In this document: in pieces, positions 1 to 20,478 of the stretch
Layout: each line of letters starts with the position of its first letter
Numbering within the stretch: the stretch's first letter is position 1
IMG/VR virus record: IMGVR_UViG_3300033997_000372
Location: 1 to 33,244 of that record
DNA: 33,244 nucleotides
Origin: a virus
Reading direction: 5' to 3' (one strand)
Notes under the pieces: generated by a model
Told to the model about the DNA's origin: nothing
The model's input: only the letters and a program-made list of their open reading frames with translations
Database searches by the model: none
Program-made: the position numbers and the translations under genes

Positions 1-64
1 CGTTGTTGTTCGTGTTGCCGTCGGTAAAGTTCGTGTTGAAGGCGTTGTTGGACGAGTACTGCGA
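1..64 (-). repeat. DGR template repeat (TR), truncated at left edge
   Basis: Read on the minus strand, this stretch is a near copy of the 3' ends of both target genes, but with many AAC codons (N N N N T D N N N N at the variable sites). Against VR1 (665-728) it differs at 13 positions, 12 of them TR adenines; against VR2 (1274-1337) it differs at 13, all TR adenines. Homology stops sharply after position 64. By comparison with the full variable regions about 35 bases of the TR lie left of the window. Position 1 is the only non-adenine difference, and only against VR1. The 154 bases between TR and avd hold no gene I can support. Location between avd and an expected reverse transcriptase matches the Bordetella phage BPP-1 layout. 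Confidence 0.93.
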
Positions 65-218
65 CATGCCTTGCTATCTACGTCGCCCAGCCGATTGCTC
101 AGCCGAGAAACTGCGCCGGACCTACCAGGCGGCCTGGCGGTATCCGTGATGCGCATGGCGGTGCCCGATGGGCAGCGGCAAGACCAGATTCAGCGCTCAG
201 GCTTGGCGGCCGTAGCCA

Positions 219-575
219 TCACGCAGCGGGCGCGGTTGCGAATTTCCCTTTCCAGGCGTTGGCCTGTTTTCCTATTGACGCGGTGAGCTGCATGGCTGCA
301 GCGTGCTGCTTGAGGCTGATGAAGCGCCGATTGGCCAAGGCGCGAAGCAGGTAGTTCACCATACAGATGCTCTCCAGCAACTGGTTCAGGTGCGGCACCT
401 TGTCCTTCGCCATGTTGGCGCGCCCGATCAGCACCATGATCTGCAGAGCCTCATCACGTAGCTTCGAGCCAATGACCTGTTTCAGGTCTCGCGGGATGTT
501 GCGCACGAGATCAAGGGTAAGGCCGAGCAGTTCTTCGGCCGCTTTGTGGATCTGCAGTTCGGTGTGCATGGCCAT
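219..575 (-). CDS. avd: Avd accessory variability determinant of the DGR
   Basis: A 118-residue, all-helical, basic protein resembling the four-helix-bundle Avd/23S-IVS protein family. Known Avd proteins form a positively charged pentamer that binds the DGR reverse transcriptase and is needed for mutagenic cDNA synthesis. The segments LQIHKAAEELLGLTLDLVRNIP, SKLRDEALQIMVLIGRA, LNQLLESICMVNYLLRALANRR and LKQHAAAMQLTASIGKQANAWKG look like the four helices. The ATG at 575 was chosen because GAGGAGG lies five bases upstream; an in-frame ATG at 605 lacks such a site. It sits 39 bases after the first target gene and 154 bases before the TR, the usual DGR order target-avd-TR-RT. It was identified by family resemblance plus context. 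Confidence 0.88.
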   Translation of the reverse strand: MAMHTELQIHKAAEELLGLTLDLVRNIPRDLKQVIGSKLRDEALQIMVLIGRANMAKDKVPHLNQLLESICMVNYLLRALANRRFISLKQHAAAMQLTASIGKQANAWKGKFATAPAA

Positions 576-614
576 CCTGGCCTCCTCGTGGTCGTTCCTG
601 ACCAAATGAATGGA

Positions 615-1187
615 TTAGCGAATGAATCTGCGGACGGCGCGGACGCGAAACTCGAGGCCCTTGCTGTAGCTGCCCGTGTGGCCGCCGGGAAAGTACGTGA
701 AGAAGGCGCCGTTGGACGAGTACTGCGAGCTGCTCCAGTACCACGTAGCGCTGAACAGCTCCGGCACATTCGCCCAGGCCATCATCAGTTCGGCTTGGGA
801 GGGCAGGTAGAAGTCGGCATGCCCATCGGCCTCGACGGAGGCCGCGTACTCGGCAGCGGAGTGGCTACCTTCTTCGAGCAAGGCCTTGGTGTTGGCCAGG
901 CCATCCCACTTGCTGGTGGCCTTGGACTCGTCGCCGTAGCCACCCCACTTGATGTCCTTGGCGTCTTCCTTGGCCCAGATGAGGTAGTAGTCCGGATGAC
1001 CGTCACGCCCTCGGAACAGGCCGCCGTTGATCCCGCCTTGTCCGGGCCACTCGGCGCCGAGCGGCGGCACATCGGAGGGAGTGGACTGGTCTTGCTGGTC
1101 TTCGAGAAGGGCCATCGCATACGTGGCGAACTGATGGTCGCTGGTGGTGATGGTGGTTCCGTTTGCGTTGATGGTAATGAGGATCAT
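615..1187 (-). CDS. DGR target protein 1, C-type-lectin/DUF1566-like fold
   Basis: A 190-residue protein whose C-terminal half looks like the DUF1566/Lcl_C C-type-lectin-like fold used by many DGR targets: WDGLANTKALLEEGS at about 94-108, FYLPSQAELMMAW at 126-138, WYWSSSQYSSNGAFF at 149-163, and a terminal FRVRAVR at 180-186. Residues 154-186 are encoded by the variable region. The diversified positions visible against the TR are 159, 160, 163, 165, 167, 168, 170, 172, 173 and 174, reading N G F Y P G H G S Y. There is no signal peptide or membrane segment. The N-terminal 60 residues are not recognised. GGAG lies eight bases before the ATG. Its ligand is unknown; in other DGRs such proteins bind variable surface partners. 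Confidence 0.9.
   Translation of the reverse strand: MILITINANGTTITTSDHQFATYAMALLEDQQDQSTPSDVPPLGAEWPGQGGINGGLFRGRDGHPDYYLIWAKEDAKDIKWGGYGDESKATSKWDGLANTKALLEEGSHSAAEYAASVEADGHADFYLPSQAELMMAWANVPELFSATWYWSSSQYSSNGAFFTYFPGGHTGSYSKGLEFRVRAVRRFIR
630..728 (-). repeat. DGR variable region VR1
   Basis: This is the 3' end of target gene 1. Positions 665-728 align without gaps to TR 1-64. Substitutions relative to the TR fall at coding-strand adenines in 12 of 13 cases. The last 25 bases (630-654) are identical to 1239-1263 in target gene 2, are GC rich and encode the EFRVRAVR tail; this is the expected place of the IMH element that starts mutagenic homing. The matching part of the TR is outside the window, so the IMH/IMH* difference cannot be read here. 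Confidence 0.92.
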
Positions 1188-1217
1188 GGCAACTCCAAAA
1201 AGGAATGAAGGAGCGGA

Positions 1218-1700
1218 TTACTGAATGATGGGAATCTTGCGGACGGCGCGGACGCGAAACTCGTTGAACTTGACGTAGTAGTACGTGAAGCCGCCGGTAA
1301 AGAGCGTGAAGAAGGCGCCGTAGGACGAGTACTGCGAACTCGACCAATACCAGTCATCTTCGAAACCATCGATCTCACCGGCCTGCTTGGCGGCGTACAG
1401 GGTGGCCAGCTCCAGGGCGGACGGGATGAACGCGCCCTCCGCGATCTCCAGGACGCGAGCGGCGATGGGGCTGCCAGCCTCGGCCATGGCGGTGGTGTTC
1501 GCAGCGCCGTCGCGGTAGCTGGTGGCGCCGGAGACGTTCTGGCCGTACTTCCCCCACTCGCCGGTGAACTCGTGCTCCTTGCCCATGGCGACATAGGCGT
1601 ACTCCACACCGTTGAGCCAGGTGCGCGAGTAGAAGATGCCGTCAGCCAGGCTCTGGCCAATGGCGGGAAGGTCTGCTGCTTTGATTGCGGTGATGGTCAT
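1218..1700 (-). CDS. DGR target protein 2, C-type-lectin/DUF1566-like fold
   Basis: A 160-residue paralogue of the downstream target protein. It shares the pattern DGAANTTAMAEAGSP (64-78), FIPSALELATLY (91-102), WYWSSSQYSSYGAFF (117-131) and terminal FRVRAVR (148-154). Residues 122-154 are encoded by VR2. Diversified residues at 127, 128, 131, 133, 135, 136, 138, 140, 141 and 142 read Y G F L T G F Y Y Y, so the likely binding face is rich in aromatics. The N-terminal third differs from that of target 1, which suggests a different attachment partner. No signal peptide is visible. AAGGAA precedes the ATG. It is the first gene of the leftward operon, after a leader of about 220 bases, with 30 bases between it and target 1. 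Confidence 0.9.
   Translation of the reverse strand: MTITAIKAADLPAIGQSLADGIFYSRTWLNGVEYAYVAMGKEHEFTGEWGKYGQNVSGATSYRDGAANTTAMAEAGSPIAARVLEIAEGAFIPSALELATLYAAKQAGEIDGFEDDWYWSSSQYSSYGAFFTLFTGGFTYYYVKFNEFRVRAVRKIPIIQ
1239..1337 (-). repeat. DGR variable region VR2
   Basis: Positions 1274-1337 align gap-free to TR 1-64. There are 13 differences, all at coding-strand TR adenines. Six substituted positions carry the same base as in VR1 and the rest differ, so the two regions have distinct mutational histories. The 3' 25 bases (1239-1263) are identical to 630-654 of VR1 and form the candidate IMH. Confidence 0.93.
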
Positions 1701-1884: not shown

Positions 1885-1924
1885 GCGACCTTTCGGGCTG
1901 GCCGGCGGTGTTCTGCTGGCGTGA

Positions 1925-1973
1925 GCTAAATTTAGCCCTAGGCTAAATAGTTGGCAATAGCTCACAGCTAAAT
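1925..1973. promoter_or_regulatory. OL-like repressor operator cluster
   Basis: A perfect operator ATTTAGC-N5-GCTAAAT lies at 1930-1948 and a second, AATAGC-N5-GCTAAAT, at 1956-1973. A further half-site GCTAAAT starts at 1925, forming GCTAAATTTAGC with the first operator. The same half-site and 5-base spacing occur between cI and cro at 4200-4266, so these are probably sites for the CI-like repressor (and perhaps Cro). Confidence 0.75.
1929..1957 (-). promoter_or_regulatory. Leftward promoter PL-like, drives the DGR operon
   Basis: On the minus strand there is TTGCCA (1952-1957), a 17-base spacer, and TAAATT (1929-1934). PR at 4239-4267 is built the same way: TTGCTC, 17 bases, TAAATT. In both cases the -10 is part of a GCTAAATT operator half-site. 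The predicted start is near 1922, giving a leader of about 220 bases with the boxA-like site. Sequence-based prediction only. Confidence 0.6.
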
Positions 1974-2065
1974 ATTTTCTCGTGATCGAATTCGACCTTC
2001 GCCCTATTGCCGGACTTAGCATTCTGCTATTACTGTACGAATATCCAGTAGTGAGGAGTAAGCCA

Positions 2066-2593: not shown

Positions 2594-2926
2594 TCAAGCG
2601 GCCTGATGGTCTTCCTGGCTGTGAGTCACGACCTTGGATAGGCCAAGGCCAACAGATGAAAGCACCTTTGTCAGGGTCAGTAGCCCTGGGTTTCCGCCTG
2701 CCGCAAACTGCCTGTAGAGGTTGCCGCGATTTAGACCGGTATCCTGAGATACCTTCTGGAAGCCGCCGCGGGCCTCAATAATTCTTCGGACTGCGTTCAG
2801 GAACACGGCCTCGCCACCCTCTTCATCGATCTCTTCGAGAGCTGCTACGAGATACTCCAGCGCGAAGTCCTCGTCATTGCGCAGCATCTCAAGGACACTG
2901 TCCTCGTGGTTGCTTACGCTTTTCAT
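2594..2926 (-). CDS. Antitoxin, HI1420-like helix-turn-helix protein
   Basis: A 110-residue protein matching the pattern of HI1420-type addiction-module antidotes. The N-terminal half is acidic (FALEYLVAALEEIDEEGGEAVFLNAVRRIIEARGG), followed by a helix-turn-helix (FQKVSQDTGLNRGNLYRQFAAGGNPGLLTLTKVLSSVGL, about 56-94). Such antitoxins neutralise the partner RelE/ParE-fold toxin and repress their own operon. It starts two bases after the toxin stop, so the order is toxin first, as is usual in this family. Base composition is less GC rich than the structural genes, which suggests a separately acquired cassette. Confidence 0.85.
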   Translation of the reverse strand: MKSVSNHEDSVLEMLRNDEDFALEYLVAALEEIDEEGGEAVFLNAVRRIIEARGGFQKVSQDTGLNRGNLYRQFAAGGNPGLLTLTKVLSSVGLGLSKVVTHSQEDHQAA

Positions 2927-2928
2927 CG

Positions 2929-3246
2929 TCAGTCACCCTTTATGGCCCTCCAGATCTGGATGGCCTGCTCTATATCGTTCTGTTGTCGTTGCTTTGTACC
3001 GCCGCCCAGCAAAAGAAGAATCTCGCCGCCGGAAATGACGTAATAGACGCGATAGCCAGGGCCAAAGTGAAATTTCAGCTCGGAAACCCCTTCGCCAACC
3101 GGCTCAGAGTCTCCGAAATTTCCCTGCGCCGCACGCTCCACACGAGTGGTGATTCGCGCCTTTGCCTTGGTATCACGTAGCGAATCAAGCCATGCCTGGT
3201 AAAGGTCAACGCCGTTGTCGGTATGGGCGTGATTCACTTCGTACAT
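2929..3246 (-). CDS. Toxin, HI1419/RelE-ParE-type addiction module protein
   Basis: A 105-residue protein with the HI1419-type signature: FGDSEPVGEGVSELKFHFGPGYRVYYVISGGEILLLLGGGTKQRQQNDIEQAIQIW (about 45-100). This is the RelE/ParE fold; relatives inhibit translation or gyrase, and which applies here cannot be told. It is the first gene of a two-gene operon, followed two bases later by its antitoxin. A GTACA-N7-TGTAC inverted repeat (3241-3257) overlaps the start codon and could be the autoregulatory site. AAAAGG upstream is a weak ribosome site. The pair lies between the small acidic gene and cI, in the immunity region, and may be expressed in the lysogen. Confidence 0.85.
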   Translation of the reverse strand: MYEVNHAHTDNGVDLYQAWLDSLRDTKAKARITTRVERAAQGNFGDSEPVGEGVSELKFHFGPGYRVYYVISGGEILLLLGGGTKQRQQNDIEQAIQIWRAIKGD

Positions 3247-3362: not shown

Positions 3363-4181
3363 TCAAGCCTTCTTCGCATTCCAGATCAGCAGCACCCTGG
3401 CATGGATGGTCACGGAGTCCAGGGGCACCTCGCGGTCCTTGTGCTTGGGGTTGTCCGAGATCAGTTCGATCGTGTCCTTGCTCACCATCTGCAGGCGCTT
3501 GATGTACAGGTGGTCGTTCCAGGTGAGGACGTAGATGCCGTCGCCGACGAACTCGTTGATGCCGCGGTCGACGATCAGCGGGTCCTTGTCGTTGATGGTC
3601 CCCTCCATGGACTGCCCCCATCCGGTGATCATGGCCAGGTGGGCAGGGGAGGTGAAGGTGATCCCGTTCTCCTGGAGATAGGACTCCTTGACGATGACGT
3701 TCCGGACCACCTCGGCGTAGTCGGGCGCAACCTGGCCGTGGCCCATGGAAGCGCGGATATCGTACTGAGGGATAAGGATCTCGCCCTTCGTCGCTGGCGC
3801 TGGTGCCTGGATGAAGGTGGAGGCGGGTTGATCCTCGGCGGCGCCCAGCAGGCGCTCCTGGGCTTCCTTCGACAGCGCCTTCCCGGCTTTGGTGGCGAGC
3901 ATGGCGCGAACTAGGTCAGCAGGGGTCTTTCCGCCCGCATGCGGTGCCTCGACTAAACCCTCCGGCCCCGGCTCCCGAAGCTGATCCATCCAGCCCCGCT
4001 CCAGGCCTTCCAAACTCTCGATTCGGCGCGCCACGTCGTCGCCCAGATTCTTCTCAGTGCGATCCGACAGGATCTGGCTCAGGTGAGCTGGCGCCATCTC
4101 CCACTTCAGTGCGCATGCGTTCTTGCGGCGCGTGCCGATGAGGTTGATGAGGTTCTGCTTTCGAATTGCGTAGATGTCCAT
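3363..4181 (-). CDS. cI: CI-like repressor with S24 autoprotease domain
   Basis: A 272-residue repressor. The N-terminal part (about 8-62) is a helix-turn-helix with ALKWEMAPAHLSQILSDRTEKNLGDDVARRIE. A linker with Ala/Pro-rich segment follows (to about 130), then a LexA/S24 peptidase domain (about 135-265). The catalytic pair is probably Ser191 in GWGQSMEGTINDKDPLIVDR and Lys228 in LYIKRL; the likely cleavage region is around ASMGHG (144-149). It should keep the lysogen by binding the ATTTAGC-N5-GCTAAAT operators on both flanks and be cleaved during the RecA/SOS response. It is divergent from the cro-like gene across a 116-base operator region. The 116 bases downstream (3247-3362) hold the toxin control region and no gene. 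Confidence 0.93.
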   Translation of the reverse strand: MDIYAIRKQNLINLIGTRRKNACALKWEMAPAHLSQILSDRTEKNLGDDVARRIESLEGLERGWMDQLREPGPEGLVEAPHAGGKTPADLVRAMLATKAGKALSKEAQERLLGAAEDQPASTFIQAPAPATKGEILIPQYDIRASMGHGQVAPDYAEVVRNVIVKESYLQENGITFTSPAHLAMITGWGQSMEGTINDKDPLIVDRGINEFVGDGIYVLTWNDHLYIKRLQMVSKDTIELISDNPKHKDREVPLDSVTIHARVLLIWNAKKA

Positions 4182-4199
4182 TCGGCGATGTTGCCATCC

Positions 4200-4266
4200 T
4201 TTAGCTCCGTGCTAAATGTGCGCACGGCTAAATTTACCTTGCTCGCGCATTAGCCGTGAGCTAAAT
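4200..4266. promoter_or_regulatory. OR-like operator cluster between cI and cro
   Basis: Three sites of the form half-site, 5 bases, half-site: TTTAGC-N5-GCTAAA (4200-4216), ATGTGC-N5-GCTAAAT (4216-4233, left half degenerate), and ATTAGC-N5-GCTAAAT (4249-4266). Three operators between divergent repressor and Cro genes is the classical lambdoid arrangement. The third lies between and over the -35/-10 of PR. Confidence 0.85.
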
Positions 4267-4267
4267 T
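4239..4267 (+). promoter_or_regulatory. Rightward early promoter PR
   Basis: TTGCTC (4239-4244), 17-base spacer, TAAATT (4262-4267), predicted start near 4274. The spacer contains an operator, so repressor binding would occlude RNA polymerase. It drives the cro-like gene and the replication operon. Confidence 0.65.
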
Positions 4268-4297
4268 TCCTCCTACTTGAAACAGGAGGAATCCTTC

Positions 4298-5907: not shown

Positions 5908-6679
5908 CCAGGAAGACCAACTGCTGGTGTCGCTGTTCGCCACCGCTGAGGCCATGGGGCAGGAGCTGACCCAGGCCGCCGGGCTGATGATGATCGACGA
6001 CCTGAAGGGCTACCCGGAGCCGGTGGTGGTCGCGGCGCTGCAGGCCTGCCGCCGTGAGGTGACCGGCAAGCTCACCATCGGCGCGATCCTGCAGCGTGTG
6101 CAGGCCGCAGATGGCCGCCCTGGGCGTGACGAAGCCTGGTCCATCGCCCTAGCCGCCTCCGACGAGTTCGAGTCGGTGATGCTGACCGAGGAGATTCTGG
6201 CAGCGCTGCAGGTGGCCAAGGCCAGCCTGGATATGCGCGACAAGGTGGGCGCTCGGATGTCCTTCCTCAGCGCCTATGACCGCCTGGTGGAGACGGCGCG
6301 CCGAGAGGGCAAGCCGGTCAAGTGGTCGCTCTCCATCGGCTATGACCTGCAGCGTCGGGCTCTGGCGGTCGAGCAGGCGGTGCTCCTTCAGCGCCTTCCC
6401 GCCCCCGTTGGCCAGCAGTTGCTCGCCGACCTCCGTGAACAAGGCGTGCCGGTGAGCCAGGACGGAGCCGCAATTGCCGGGCTCCTCACTGGCCGAACCG
6501 GCAACCCATCCCCCCAGCTCCGTGAGCGCCTGCTGGAGCTGAAGAAGTCCCTGGCAGAGCAGAAGGGCGCCCGCGCCCGCGCCCGAGCTCGCCGCGAGGA
6601 GCTGAACCAGTACGACGAACGCCTGAAGGCCCGGCACGCGGCTCGGATGGCTGAAGCACAAGGAGCCGACCATGGCTGA
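5894..6679 (+). CDS. Putative replication partner, P-like N-terminal pattern
   Basis: A 261-residue protein translated from the end of the initiator gene. Residues 1-95 carry a pattern seen in phage replication accessory proteins: AAGLMMIDDLKGYPEPVVVAALQACRREVTGKLTIGAILQRVQAADGRPGRDEAWSIA. The rest is helical, with a strongly basic ARARARARREELNQYDERLKARHAARM near the C-terminus. No Walker motif is visible, so it is not a DnaC/DnaB-like ATPase. The place right after O suggests a helicase-loading role analogous to lambda P, but this is inference from position and partial resemblance. Confidence 0.6.
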   Translation: MLTPDQEDQLLVSLFATAEAMGQELTQAAGLMMIDDLKGYPEPVVVAALQACRREVTGKLTIGAILQRVQAADGRPGRDEAWSIALAASDEFESVMLTEEILAALQVAKASLDMRDKVGARMSFLSAYDRLVETARREGKPVKWSLSIGYDLQRRALAVEQAVLLQRLPAPVGQQLLADLREQGVPVSQDGAAIAGLLTGRTGNPSPQLRERLLELKKSLAEQKGARARARARREELNQYDERLKARHAARMAEAQGADHG

Positions 6680-20255: not shown

Positions 20256-20280
20256 GCCGCCTCATTTCCACATGAGGGAG

Positions 20281-20443
20281 ACGAACCGTGCGCGGGGTGG
20301 AAAACCGGGGTCAGAGAACCCGGCAGGTCTTTCGACCTCCCACGCACGGCCCGCCATTAAGCGGGCACAAAAAAACGCCTTACGGCGCTGTGCGCCTCTG
20401 AACTCTTCGGGTTTCCACGCCCGGCCACCGATTTGGCGGTGAC
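20281..20443 (-). ncRNA. C4-antisense-RNA-like leader of ant
   Basis: The transcript upstream of ant folds into an outer stem (20336-20349 with 20286-20300) enclosing two hairpins: AGGTC/GACCT (20325-20338, loop GAAA on the RNA) and CCGGG/CCCGG (20305-20323). A separate GCCCGC/GCGGGC hairpin lies at 20349-20366, and CGCC-GTAA-GGCG followed by seven T at 20369-20387. The loop CUCUGAC (20310-20316) can pair with GUCAGAG beside the ant ribosome site (20238-20244), and GAGUUC (20400-20405) with GAACUC (20250-20255). P1/P7 C4 RNA is known to repress ant by such pairing after being cut from the same transcript. Exact ends are uncertain. Confidence 0.72.
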
Positions 20444-20449
20444 CGGCGC

Positions 20450-20478
20450 ACAGTAACGCCACAAACATCGATCGTCAA
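20450..20478 (-). promoter_or_regulatory. Promoter of the C4-ant transcript
   Basis: On the minus strand TTGACG (20473-20478), 17-base spacer, TACTGT (20450-20455), predicted start near 20443. It lies upstream of the C4-like RNA and downstream of a plus-strand terminator, so the two transcription units are insulated from each other. Confidence 0.6.

Follow-up and report, generated by a model that had tools for sequence, protein, structure and literature searches.

A diversity-generating retroelement with two small lectin-fold targets in the putative early operon of a temperate Pseudomonas phage

A linear viral contig of 33,244 bases, analysed here over its whole length (the entire record IMGVR_UViG_3300033997_000372, hereafter the window), very probably carries a bona fide diversity-generating retroelement (DGR) of a temperate Pseudomonas phage, apparently organized as an early, putatively CI-controlled cassette with two small lectin-fold targets. 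In order of transcription, the minus strand at the left end of the window encodes target gene T2, target gene T1, avd, and a template repeat (TR) within which the contig ends. The mechanism of such elements is already known; the new part is the setting of this cassette and the pool of target alleles to which it belongs.

The retained part of the TR (positions 1–64, minus strand) aligns without gaps to positions 665–728 and 1274–1337, within the ends of the two target genes. On the coding (minus) strand there are 13 differences to each copy, and 25 of these 26 (12 and 13, respectively) fall at TR adenines, which occupy 22 of the 64 positions; 16 of the 22 are altered in at least one variable repeat (VR). 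At the 42 other positions, VR1 differs from the TR once and VR2 not at all. These numbers agree exactly with those of the initial annotation, and the DGR proposed there is upheld in every respect that could be tested, from the adenine bias, avd and the targets to an RT-15 RNA and the reverse transcriptase (RT) of relatives. The variable repeats span 629..728 (VR1) and 1238..1337 (VR2), both on the minus strand, and each includes a GC-rich 3' end resembling an initiation of mutagenic homing (IMH) site (630–650 and 1239–1259). This 21-nt block is common to VR1, VR2 and the TR of the closest relative (L001, see below), which extends approximately 36 nt beyond the part retained here and is followed by the RT gene. 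A scan of the whole window found no third VR, the next-best places having at least 16 mismatches at the 42 non-adenine positions. BPP-1 requires a hairpin downstream of its VR (a hairpin/cruciform with a GRNA loop), whereas in the window this element is weak or absent: a 5-bp stem with an AGGAAC loop lies downstream of VR1, none is clear after VR2, and a strong hairpin 3' of either VR was not found.

The accessory protein Avd is encoded at 219..575 (minus strand; 118 aa), from an ATG that follows GAGGAGG and within a longer open reading frame that reaches 605; relatives share the start MAMHTELQIHK. The protein matches Pfam bAvd (1.3e-14), the PHROG family “Avd protein of DGR” (9e-30) and NCBIfam DivGenRetAVD (1.4e-14, yet with 54 bits, under the cut-off of 80), which confirms the earlier assignment. 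The spacer between avd and the TR contains a full-length match to the RT-15 RNA (Rfam RF03018; 62..235, minus strand; 156.8 bits, E 7.6e-38).

The comparisons draw on 80 viral and 49 genome loci that encode relatives of avd. The closest relative found is a prophage contig of Pseudomonas alcaligenes MRY13-0052 (L001/L081), with ~88% DNA identity to the window over the 1.7 kb of T2-T1-avd, and with a TR and an intact RT after avd; unlike the window, it has different VRs, a different immunity region and no GCTAAAT sites. The same two targets, avd (88–89% identical) and TR occur in the cultured phages Haboob (OR683404) and VB_PaD_phPA-G (PP083311, Detrevirus), where an RT is present and annotated, but the repressors and phage genomes are others and the targets are 57–69% identical. 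Burkholderia phage Magia and Shewanella phage QDWS belong to the same RT/avd lineage (66% RT identity) and carry the cassette in an early recombination-integration operon. The targets of Magia are small lectin-fold proteins like those of the window, although targets in both phages are shorter and Magia carries an additional lectin-fold gene at a distance of several kb.

Both target genes of the initial annotation are borne out as Lcl_C-type genes with a VR at the 3' end. T1 (615..1187, minus strand; 190 aa) is defined by its reading frame, profile matches and alignment to the TR, and T2 (1218..1700, minus strand; 160 aa) by its reading frame, profile matches and an AlphaFold2 model; each has an Lcl_C/C-type-lectin domain with the VR-encoded segment at the C-terminus. 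Taken singly, the two proteins match Lcl_C weakly, below the Pfam cut-off. The domain was found in 24 of 27 members of the target family (best 9e-10), and the family profile matches the structure of the Lcl C-terminal domain, 8q4e (E 3.9e-8), an entry linked to Lcl (PMC11162425). The T2 model has a pLDDT of 84, with its minimum in the VR loop; it most resembles orf68 of phage D3 (TM 0.81) and DUF1566 phage proteins, and collagen-repeat phage proteins are also among its nearest viral folds. No significant match to the predicted fold was found in the PDB.

A gene for a CI-like repressor with a Peptidase S24 domain (3363..4181, minus strand) lies upstream of the DGR operon on the same strand. The heptamer GCTAAAT occurs seven times in the window and at two places only: four half-sites upstream of T2 (1920..1975), overlapping a minus-strand promoter-like site (1957–1929) and forming a putative OL/PL of the DGR operon, and three at the cI/cro promoter (4199..4270), a putative OR. 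A 12-mer operator pattern has five matches in the window versus 0.32 expected, and the 8-mers common to the two regions are exceeded by just 3 of 19,406 random pairs; because these motifs were chosen after a repeat search had flagged them, more weight belongs to their replication in relatives. The two-spot layout recurs in four relatives (L005, L014, L056, L182) and is absent from phages with other repressors. A crude k-mer test gave no signal of general operator sharing between cI and T2 in 48 relatives, most of which have a different immunity type without GCTAAAT; sharing is seen in the GCTAAAT type only. The CI-like gene is on the cassette strand in 64 of the 65 relatives with a detectable CI, and recT, nuclease, methylase and integrase genes surround the cassette of Magia, QDWS and Haboob. 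Given the cI-side position on the minus strand, the operator layout and the gene context in relatives, we assign the cassette to the left early operon.

Other features of the window include a HI1420-type antitoxin and a Gp49/ParE-like toxin gene between cI and the DGR operon (2594–3246, minus strand), probably a toxin-antitoxin module. Rfam matches to C4 antisense RNA, isrK and c4-a1b1 lie at 20274–20456 (minus strand), antisense to the plus-strand late region. The right contig end (33238–33244) falls six bases past the start codon of an integrase gene, which suggests trimming or breakage at a gene boundary.

From the early-operon position it follows that the targets are most likely non-structural, early, cytoplasmic proteins that do not form part of the virion. 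It is unlikely, in our estimation, that they are receptor-binding virion proteins like Mtd of BPP-1 whose proximity to cI is incidental, even though Lcl_C is the C-terminal domain of an adhesin, DUF1566 and collagen-repeat proteins are among the nearest folds, and tail proteins are the usual targets in virus-dominated DGR clades (Roux et al., 2021; PMC8144416). The same study left other viral DGR targets as unknown. A virion role fits poorly with two standalone proteins of 160–190 aa in which no attachment or trimerisation domain was detected, and with an early minus-strand operon that diverges from the late genes. The plus strand carries the head and tail genes at ~11–28 kb, T1 and T2 lie beside cI on the minus strand, and neither target is a tail-fibre gene placed among the structural genes, as in BPP-1-type tropism switching DGRs. 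The recombination and integration genes around the cassettes of Magia and QDWS point the same way, as does the homologue in phage PA5oct, which lies inside the terminal repeat region amid small unannotated genes and not tail genes.

The likeness to BPP-1-type DGRs noted at the outset therefore stands for the order of components and fails for the setting, with targets outside the tail genes and a cassette in the early left operon by cI. BPP-1 (mtd-avd-TR-brt) shares with the window the order target-avd-TR-RT, adenine-specific TR/VR differences and a lectin-fold target with a 3' VR, and its brt is recovered by the Haboob RT in a tblastn search (30.7% identity, E 2e-30). However, BPP-1 diversifies one tail-fibre protein and the window encodes two small standalone targets.

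Comparison of VRs among related strains, which had been proposed as a check on the DGR, revealed differences almost wholly at VR adenines between loci with the same avd-RT and target bodies. For example, L033 and L034 have no differences over 1700 positions of avd-TR-RT or over 250 positions of each target body, and 17/27 and 14/27 of their VR adenines are changed, next to 1 and 0 differences elsewhere in the VRs. Likewise, L165 is identical to Haboob over the target body (0/351) and differs from it in the VR at 17/32 adenines and 1/68 other positions. VR-confined adenine differences between otherwise identical loci indicate that the DGR family is recently active. Across 203 distinct TR/VR pairs from relatives, 2616 of 5837 template adenines (45%) versus 86 of 12433 other bases (0.7%) differ, rates that describe the alignments and are no independent test, as the pairs were partly selected for few non-adenine mismatches.

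Some loci of the family depart from this arrangement. The TRs of L006 (~6538–6627) and L070 (6541–6630) appear to have been overwritten by a VR copy, each being one change from one VR; about half of their adenines are lost, which should disarm the DGR. In PP179333.1 (Cruim01), an extra VR-like copy at 43587–43691 lies ~8 kb past two adjacent VRs and is possibly a remote third target, and additional VRs occur upstream in L037, L040, L063, L082 and L103.

Homologues of T2 were identified in 27 phage records. A search of 20 whole records found an intact RT in three, a remnant of 43 RT residues in one (D14O) and no RT in 16. These 16 are nine Wroclawvirus jumbo phages, which are lytic, along with D3, phi_D3, PMG1, U7, U9, FBPa42 and FBPa19; a search of their genomes gave VR-like copies only and no TR. 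D3 orf68, PMG1 gp68 and PA5oct EST35_0104 thus have the VR-like C-terminus of a DGR target in genomes without RT or TR, unlike the window with its TR. At least 16 further viral contigs show the same orphan pattern within the stretches compared, and in a plasmid collection a T2-like match was found in three P. aeruginosa records only. Compared with the Haboob TR, the orphan VRs keep the adenine signature in states that range from pristine to decayed: FBPa42 differs at 17/32 adenines and 0/68 other positions, L164 at 17 and 0, L156 at 18 and 0, PA5oct at 15 and 1, and 30-2 at 20 and 13.

The orphan pattern is explained, as far as sequence comparison can tell, by intragenic recombination. The T2 bodies form segment-wise mosaics, linkage within T2 declines with distance after a divergent clade is set aside, and in the T2 tree the alleles of orphans, RT-bearing loci and jumbo phages interleave. 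L164 and FBPa42 show no difference in the ~900 bp that precede T2 or the ~1,400 bp that follow it, and the T2 body differs at 8/351 positions in addition to the VR; we read this as recombination because the flanks are identical and T2 is swapped. L156 and Haboob have 800 bp and the whole T2 body in common and the rest of the cassette is missing from L156, an orphan that arose by cassette loss. It is improbable that VR hypervariability in RT-less phages comes instead from a co-resident prophage whose DGR acts in trans. Such trans targeting is possible in principle, as a heterologous gene with IMH and hairpin elements becomes a target when a plasmid supplies RT and Avd (PMC3240598), and it would agree with the VRs of FBPa42, L164, L156 and PA5oct, which match the Haboob TR at every or almost every non-adenine position. 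The mosaic bodies and interleaved alleles speak for recombination, and for L164 and FBPa42 a trans rewriting confined to the VR is ruled out: what was exchanged is a gene segment that includes the T2 body, not a tract of TR length. In D14O (L136), L170, L173 and L176, a T2 body is joined to a T1-type 3' tail (GATTGCTTCGCTAATTC after the VR), a fusion that suggests VR-VR recombination deleting T1.

No RT gene is present in the 33,244 bases of the window, and because the contig ends in the TR the RT of this phage can only be inferred. The initial annotation had called for an RT within ~2 kb to the left. Where a relative keeps a TR and its contig leaves room, the RT nearly always begins about 276–316 nt past the end of avd (~280 nt), and 126 RT frames contain IGNLSSQ followed by YVDD. 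The motif [IVL]GxxxSQ is typical of DGR RTs. The expectation thus holds for the relatives, including the closest one, where the RT is intact. Given a TR that is still present and VRs that are pristine, a DGR-type RT would lie just beyond the left end of the window. RT loss is frequent among relatives (reduced to fragments in L003, L008, L009, L036, L052 and L072, and to 43 residues in D14O) and the contig shows no RT, but it is very unlikely that the window holds a decaying remnant with frozen VRs like D14O or L003, since wherever the RT is lost on a relative's contig with room the TR is gone too, whereas the window retains its TR, its VRs differ from that TR so little outside adenines, and the contig break adjoins sequence that is repeated in the TR, VR1 and VR2 of the nearest relative.

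In the mechanism that we propose for this bona fide DGR, the TR RNA, with the RT-15/avd spacer, would be copied by an adenine-error-prone RT acting together with Avd. The cDNA would replace VR1 and VR2, with which the two neighbouring genes end, and would thereby randomise the ligand face of both small lectin-fold proteins. With T2-T1-avd-TR-[RT] in the left early operon, downstream of operator-like sites that are also found at the cI promoter, the cassette is expected to be shut off in the lysogen and to be expressed upon induction or in early infection. Our best guess is that the targets bind variable host proteins, for anti-defence or superinfection control.

Phage DGRs are understood mainly as tail-fibre tropism switches; here, the targets look early, intracellular and under CI control. 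The lineage is widespread, with more than 100 loci in Pseudomonas and others in Burkholderia, Shewanella and elsewhere. In the literature covered, which misses most subscription journals, we found no paper describing this early-operon DGR lineage or its RT-less homologues. We tentatively suggest, as a possibility that falls somewhat short of even, that the lineage diversifies an early, non-virion, intracellular protein under CI control, and that its alleles form a pool that spreads by recombination (or trans-homing) to RT-less phages, including the lytic jumbo phages PA5oct and Paride. Among phages already in culture, Haboob and phPA-G hold the full cassette, D3, PMG1 and FBPa42 carry an orphan target, and PA5oct and Paride carry one in a lytic jumbo genome; therefore both the role of the targets and the sharing of DGR-made diversity across phages are directly testable.
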